Shown: piece by piece, positions 26,199 through 28,740 of the stretch
Numbering within the stretch: the stretch's first letter is position 1
Layout: each line of letters begins with the position of its first letter
DNA from: Aquificales bacterium
GTDB taxonomy: Bacteria > Aquificota > Aquificia > Aquificales > Aquificaceae
Direction of reading: 5' to 3'
DNA length: 33,485 nucleotides
NCBI GenBank assembly: GCA_027078675.1
Contig: JALWWX010000243.1
Location: forward strand, 1 to 33,485
Position numbers and translations under genes: made by a program
Notes under the pieces: generated by a model
What the model was told of the DNA's origin: nothing
The model's input: only the letters and a program-made list of their open reading frames with translations
Database searches by the model: none

Positions 26199-26207
26199 TG
26201 ATATAAT
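26199..26207 (+). promoter_or_regulatory. Candidate extended -10 promoter for rpsB-tsf-pyrH
   Basis: TGATATAAT (TGnTATAAT) just after the ftsZ stop; no convincing -35, as expected for an extended -10. Confidence 0.55.
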
Positions 26208-26226
26208 TTACTTAAATTAAAACGCA

Positions 26227-26288
26227 CCTTTCCCTCTTGGGTTGCCCGCATGTGCGGGTGCGGGAAAGGGTGGCGAAACCCAAGGAGG
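26227..26288 (+). ncRNA. Putative pseudoknotted cis-regulatory RNA leader of rpsB
   Basis: Helix A CCTTTCCC (26227-26234) with GGGAAAGG (26262-26269); helix B CTTGGGTT (26236-26243) with AACCCAAG (26277-26284); internal hairpin CCCGC (26245-26249) with GCGGG (26254-26258). A and B cross (H-type pseudoknot); B' runs into the AAGGAGG SD. Confidence 0.65.
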
Positions 26289-26296
26289 TATATGTT

Positions 26297-27124
26297 ATGG
26301 CAGTTATCTCAATGAAAGATCTGCTTGAAGCTGGGGTCCACTTTGGCCACGGAAAGGGAAGGTGGAACCCCAAAATGGCACCTTACCTCTACGGGGTAAG
26401 GAATGGCATCCATATAATTGACCTTAACAAAACCGTTGTGTACCTGGAAAATGCCTATCATTTCGTTGCGGACAGTGTGGCAAAAGGAGCGGAGATACTT
26501 TTCGTTGGGACAAAAAAACAGGCAAGGGATGTAATAAGGGAAGAGGCAGAAAGATGCGGTGCCTTTTATGTATGCGAAAGATGGGTGGGTGGACTGCTTA
26601 CAAACTTCAGAACAGTAAGAAAGAGCATAATGAAACTTAGAAAACTTGAAATAATGGAAGAAGAAGGAATATTTGACGTCCTCCCCAAAAAGGAAGTAAG
26701 AAAGCTTAAAAGAACTATGGAAAAACTGAAAAAGCTGTACAGTGGGATAAGAGATATGGAAAGGATACCCGATATACTCTGGATAGTTGACACAGTAAGG
26801 GAAAGGATAGCTGTGGAAGAGGCAAAGAAACTGGGAATAACCATAGTTGCAATAGCGGATTCAAACTGCGACCCCGACGATATAGACTACATCATACCAG
26901 GTAACGATGATGCCATAAAATCTATCAAGCTTCTTACCTCAAAGATAGCGGATGCGGTTATAGAAGGTAAAACAAGGAAAGAAAGTGCGGAAGAGGTTGA
27001 AACAGAAGTTGTCAAAAGGCAAGTTGTTACCGTTGCGGAAGACGAAAGGGCCCTCTTTGAGAAAGCCATGGAAATGTCGGAAAAGTATGAGGAAATTGAT
27101 AAAGATACAATAGAGTACGAATGA
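26297..27124 (+). CDS. rpsB: 30S ribosomal protein S2
   Basis: [46 protein letters not shown]...[12 protein letters not shown]...[12 protein letters not shown]. Start at M21 of the listed ORF with AAGGAGG SD. Confidence 0.97.

Positions 27125-27139: not shown

Positions 27140-28740
<1,601 letters not shown>

Follow-up and report, generated by a model that had tools for sequence, protein, structure and literature searches.

The 33,485-nucleotide stretch of Aquificales DNA analysed here (the window) carries, between ftsZ and rpsB, an H-type pseudoknot that very probably serves this lineage as its cis-acting S2 (rpsB) leader and is a shortened homologue of the rpsB motif and t44, from which we infer autorepression by ribosomal protein S2. 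All parts of the element lie on the + strand. The 5′ strand of helix A, or P1, CCTTTCCC (26227-26234), forms a perfect 8 bp helix with GGGAAAGG (26262-26269), a pairing that recurs across 75 leaders. The 5′ strand of helix B, the pseudoknot helix, is CTTGGGTT (26236-26243), which forms another perfect 8 bp helix with AACCCAAG (26277-26284); the final 3 nt of this 3′ strand fall inside the Shine-Dalgarno sequence (SD) AAGGAGGT (26282..26289, placed from the sequence), an overlap that the sequence-only reading had recognised. The P3 hairpin GCCCGC-ATGT-GCGGGT (26244..26259; core CCCGC-ATGT-GCGGG, 26245-26258) sits between the strands, and a check of the sequence showed that the order 5′A-5′B-hairpin-3′A-3′B is that of a true H-type pseudoknot and that all coordinates given in the earlier reading were exact. 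Directly 5′ of helix A is a conserved CGCA (26223..26226), seen in alignments A1 and A2 and in the t44 alignment, where E. coli has CACACA. The single-stranded linker GTGGCGA (26270..26276), which leads from P1 to the pseudoknot strand, is also conserved and is aligned to E. coli by t44; together with the preceding G it forms a GGWGGC core, whose E. coli counterpart is GGAGGCAT, and this is a candidate S2-recognition element. In addition, GGGTTGCCC at 26239-26247 (AAAGGGTTGCCCTTT in family f2) could fold into a local hairpin at the expense of the pseudoknot and P3, giving the leader a possible second conformation.

The leader precedes rpsB (26297..27124, ATG 26297-26299; Pfam PF00318, E 3.2e-94), which is followed on the same strand by tsf, encoding elongation factor Ts (27140..28015; PF00889, E 8.7e-70), and by a gene of the amino-acid kinase family (28018..28740; PF00696, E 5.3e-39) that we take from gene order to be pyrH (UMP kinase). 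An extended -10 element, TGATATAAT (26199..26207), had been proposed ahead of the leader, and conservation bears this out: TGNTATAAT, allowing one mismatch at most, occurs within 45 nt upstream in 75/88 order-level leaders, against 9.7 expected, with a median spacing of 15 nt to the CAC anchor. The distance to this -10 element predicts a 5′ untranslated leader of about 83 nt (26214..26296). The gene on the 5′ side varies: it is ftsZ in the window and Hsp33 in genus g2, inspection pointing to Hsp33 in g4, g7 and g9 as well, with Ffh on the opposite strand in g10 and DUF2103 on the opposite strand in g3. Since the 5′ neighbour changes while rpsB is constant, the element belongs to rpsB.

Among 20,000 dinucleotide-shuffled versions of 26199-26299, only 8 produced two perfect 8-bp Watson-Crick helices that cross, and no second such pair turned up in the window when 101-nt stretches of either strand were scanned; the pseudoknot at 26227-26284 is not a product of chance. 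The minimum-energy fold gives helix A and the hairpin with an unremarkable energy (z -1.26), so the case for the pseudoknot is comparative and not thermodynamic.

For this comparison, rpsB was located in 60/64 genomes of the family and 127/136 of the class, and about 120 upstream regions were inspected. The same layout (CAC, P1 5′ strand, GGGUU, P3, P1 3′ strand, linker, AACCC, SD) was found in nearly all members of the family, spanning 10 genera, and, in sister family f2, in almost every member that could be read; the short form is also present in Aquifex, Hydrogenobacter and Thermocrinis records. Within the window's own genus, RpsB of L201 shows 98.5% identity. In a MAFFT alignment of f1 and f2, the P1 of f2 was displaced by about two columns, and an anchor alignment was used instead, comprising 75 leaders from 19 genera in which strands were placed by their flanking anchors without pairing information. 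The sequence-only reading had proposed a pseudoknot leader for rpsB and would have counted a lack of covarying substitutions as a refutation; the alignment revealed covariation in both helices. In P1, 594/600 cells pair, compared with 482 ± 6.7 after permutation (maximum 506 in 5000), and in the pseudoknot 511/525 cells pair, compared with 442 ± 8.0 (maximum 477); the permuted values come from dealing the 3′ strands among the sequences, and kinship inflates such permutations. Sliding the strands by one base cuts pairing to roughly two thirds. Even so, the types of pair recur in different genera: pair P1_2 is CG in eight genera, GC in seven, AU in four and UA in two, while pair PK_6 is UA in seven, AU in ten and CG in four. 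Genus g5 has wholly different helix sequences with pairing kept (CUCUAAUC/GAUUAGAG; AAAGGGU/ACCCUUU). The extension of helix B to the SD is partly conserved, with pair PK_8 formed in 40/75 leaders.

Other alignments gave concordant results. The GGGU of the pseudoknot 5′ strand is invariant in A1, while in A2 P1 is 100% paired, with seven pairs showing double changes (0/500 shuffles). In the outgroup alignment A3, 98.7% of cells are paired and 15 pairs show double changes; here, in families f4 and f5, P1, an inner helix and P3 covary and a 3-bp pseudoknot is nearly invariant. Every one of the 55 family leaders counted has a P3 of at least 4 bp, and 33 sister-family leaders have one of at least 3 bp. 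The linker from P1 to the pseudoknot strand measures 7-9 nt in the family and 8-11 nt in the sister family, reading G(U/A)GGC-AA in the former and GAAGAAUA-like in f2, and the gap before the pseudoknot 5′ strand is 1-4 nt in the family. Such short linkers fit an H-type fold.

The sequence-only reading had regarded this architecture as unlike the known S2 leader, a view that did not survive comparison with the rpsB motif (Meyer et al. 2009). In the description given there (PMC2704228), a junction closes P1, P2 and P3 vary in length or are missing, and the J2-3 strand pairs with a 3′ extension past P1; the pseudoknot 5′ strand of the window corresponds to J2-3. On this description the rpsB motif (Rfam RF01815) and the window element are identical in topology and share their position 5′ of rpsB, a long P1 and P3, whereas P2 is absent from the window. 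The form found throughout the order differs from the motif in that the inner part of P1 is missing, and Aquificota are not among the taxa named in the available part of PMC2704228. A similar relationship was seen with t44/tff (RF00127) of E. coli and other gammaproteobacteria, which aligns in register with the window at CAC, GGxUGCC, P3, the P1 3′ strand, GGxGGC and AAC, and whose inner helix (the second segment of P1) is deleted in the alignment. By inspection, the leaders of family f3 (L061-L067) have, ahead of the pseudoknot strand, a large additional stem that resembles the optional P2, and their pseudoknot strand, ACCCGAGG, leads directly into the SD.

Although no Rfam family matched the window leader better than t44, the t44 score of 23.2 bits lies well below the cut-off of 44, and nothing in the leader was reported by Rfam at the gathering threshold. 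Neither RF01815 nor RF00127 scored above cut-off in any of the 136 class genomes, and permissive Rfam scans of 20 Aquificaceae loci did not recover t44. With t44 also missing most leaders of the family, direct Rfam detection is unreliable here and the link of homology rests on a covariance model, R2, which was trained only on f4 and f5, Aquificota families outside the order that have the full form. R2 recovers the rpsB leader of E. coli at 30.1 bits (E 3e-7) and scores the window at 24.1 bits (E 3.6e-5); the inner helix present in f4 and f5 is deleted in those Aquificaceae alignments to R2 that were printed. Over 64 whole genomes of the family, all 21 matches with E below 0.01 lay directly 5′ of rpsB; under stricter genome-scale filters, R2 gave no match in the window's genome or in about half of the family. 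The reciprocal model R1, trained on Aquificaceae, finds the E. coli leader only marginally (15.7 bits, E 0.048). The core common to f4 and f5, E. coli and Aquificaceae comprises GGxUGCC and GGAGGC-AAACC. Judged from these alignments, the Aquificales element is a shortened homologue of the rpsB motif and t44 that falls outside Rfam's curated criterion. The proposal of a lineage-specific S2 leader thus needs to be divided: the form is specific to the lineage, with the inner helix lost and the pseudoknot adjoining the SD, but the element is not separate from the known S2 leader.

A scan of contigs for the short form, using a pattern built on the Aquificaceae core, gave 113 matches, of which 51 precede rpsB; the 62 without rpsB downstream are probably mostly due to chance. 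Among these matches, judged by eye, the short form was confined to Aquificota-like records, and those from gammaproteobacteria carry additional pairing sequence on their 5′ side. The pseudoknots in the leaders of S15 (rpsO) and S4 (alpha operon) likewise lie near the ribosome binding site and serve autogenous control (PMC10931766), but they belong to other r-protein genes and Rfam suggests no sequence relation to them.

In E. coli, S2 represses rpsB-tsf through the leader with the assistance of bS1 (PMC10931766, which cites Aseev et al. 2008 for the S2-responsive leader). Translational autorepression by S2 is also the most likely function of the Aquificales element. Free S2, in excess over 16S rRNA, would bind the folded leader and lock the pseudoknot between GGGUU and the AACCC just 3′ of P1. 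As the 3′ strand of the pseudoknot adjoins and partly overlaps the SD, 30S subunits would be kept off rpsB, and expression of tsf, and perhaps of pyrH, would fall too if these genes share the transcript. The S2 operator of E. coli excludes the ribosome binding site, so that its mechanism of repression has been described as unclear (PMC10931766). In 43/56 family leaders, 2 nt separate the pseudoknot strand from the SD core, compared with 12 nt in E. coli, and this spacing makes direct competition with the 30S subunit plausible; blocking of the SD in Aquificales is accordingly suggested by adjacency. A fuller scenario, which we advance only tentatively, is that in Aquificales the S2 leader shrank to a minimal ~60-nt knot with its closing strand fused to the SD, that direct occlusion of the SD thereby replaced control from a site remote from the ribosome binding site, possibly without bS1, and that some Aquificaceae later discarded the element cleanly. 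Local alignment for mimicry of the S2 site in 16S rRNA (h35-h37) was not significant, with 174/2000 shuffles as good. As a lead only, UUGGGUU, CCCGC and AACCC occur in E. coli 16S rRNA at 1085-1114 (L241) in the same order as in the window leader.

Alternatively, the main role of this same homologous leader could be to enhance translation or stabilise the mRNA, for instance by docking 30S subunits or S1 with the SD kept open, and with little or no S2 feedback. Pseudoknots are known high-affinity targets of bS1 (PMC10931766), the SD core GGAGG lies mostly outside helix B, and three genomes of genus g3 have lost the leader yet keep the promoter and SD. We nevertheless consider this role unlikely, given that the element is attached to rpsB only and is homologous to a leader for which repression by S2 has been demonstrated in E. 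coli. That homology would itself be called into question had the Aquificales pseudoknot arisen apart from the proteobacterial S2 leader, as the Rfam scores below cut-off and the missing inner helix might suggest; such convergence is improbable because the full form of f4 and f5 bridges the two and a single model finds both E. coli and Aquificaceae.

Compact H-type pseudoknots beside the SD are typical of some riboswitches, and the sequence-only reading had entertained a metabolite-responsive element here. We regard a metabolite riboswitch, or another ligand-responsive element, 5′ of rpsB-tsf-pyrH as very improbable: no riboswitch family in Rfam was matched, the strong matches of the Aquificaceae model R1 lie only before rpsB, with one in the window's own genome, and the element is homologous to an S2 leader. 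Still less credible is that the stretch encodes an N-terminal extension of RpsB or terminates ftsZ. The extended frame is indeed open through the element from TTG 26237, but loop lengths ignore the frame, compensatory changes track pairing and not codons, and both a strong SD and an ATG follow further downstream. Likewise, P1 is a GC-rich hairpin, but a candidate ftsZ terminator was rejected in the absence of a terminator-like site or a T tract.

Cis-acting control by S2 thus remains our preferred reading, and it extends the S2 leader to Aquificota, where it is unrecorded in the accessible literature and at Rfam cut-offs. The main text of a survey of Aquificales ncRNAs (PMC4227106) mentions neither rpsB nor leaders, and the main text of a 2020 list of new ribosomal leaders mentions neither uS2 nor Aquificota. 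The finding is solid and useful, and is unsurprising to a specialist in r-protein leaders. It supplies a compact, presumably heat-stable candidate S2-binding RNA, and a combined RF00127/RF01815 model would annotate a class that is now missed in 136 Aquificota genomes. Together, the SD-fused form, the full-length sister families and the deletion genomes make the question of the E. coli mechanism testable by comparison.

The deletions are found in L045, L047 and L054 (genomes G014, G024 and G017, respectively, all of genus g3), where the leader structure is gone and rpsB is intact. In these loci the promoter GATATAATAGGATAGCTTA and the SD persist, and the start codon comes within about 16-30 nt of the promoter, while the R1 model finds nothing in the three genomes. 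With L024 (genome G026, genus g4), the g3 losses provide natural tests of whether the leader is dispensable. In L024, an insertion of ~250 nt (about 1200-1480), which contains an apparent open frame, parts the rpsB promoter from a 3′ remnant of the leader, GGTGGCAAAACCCAAGGAGG.
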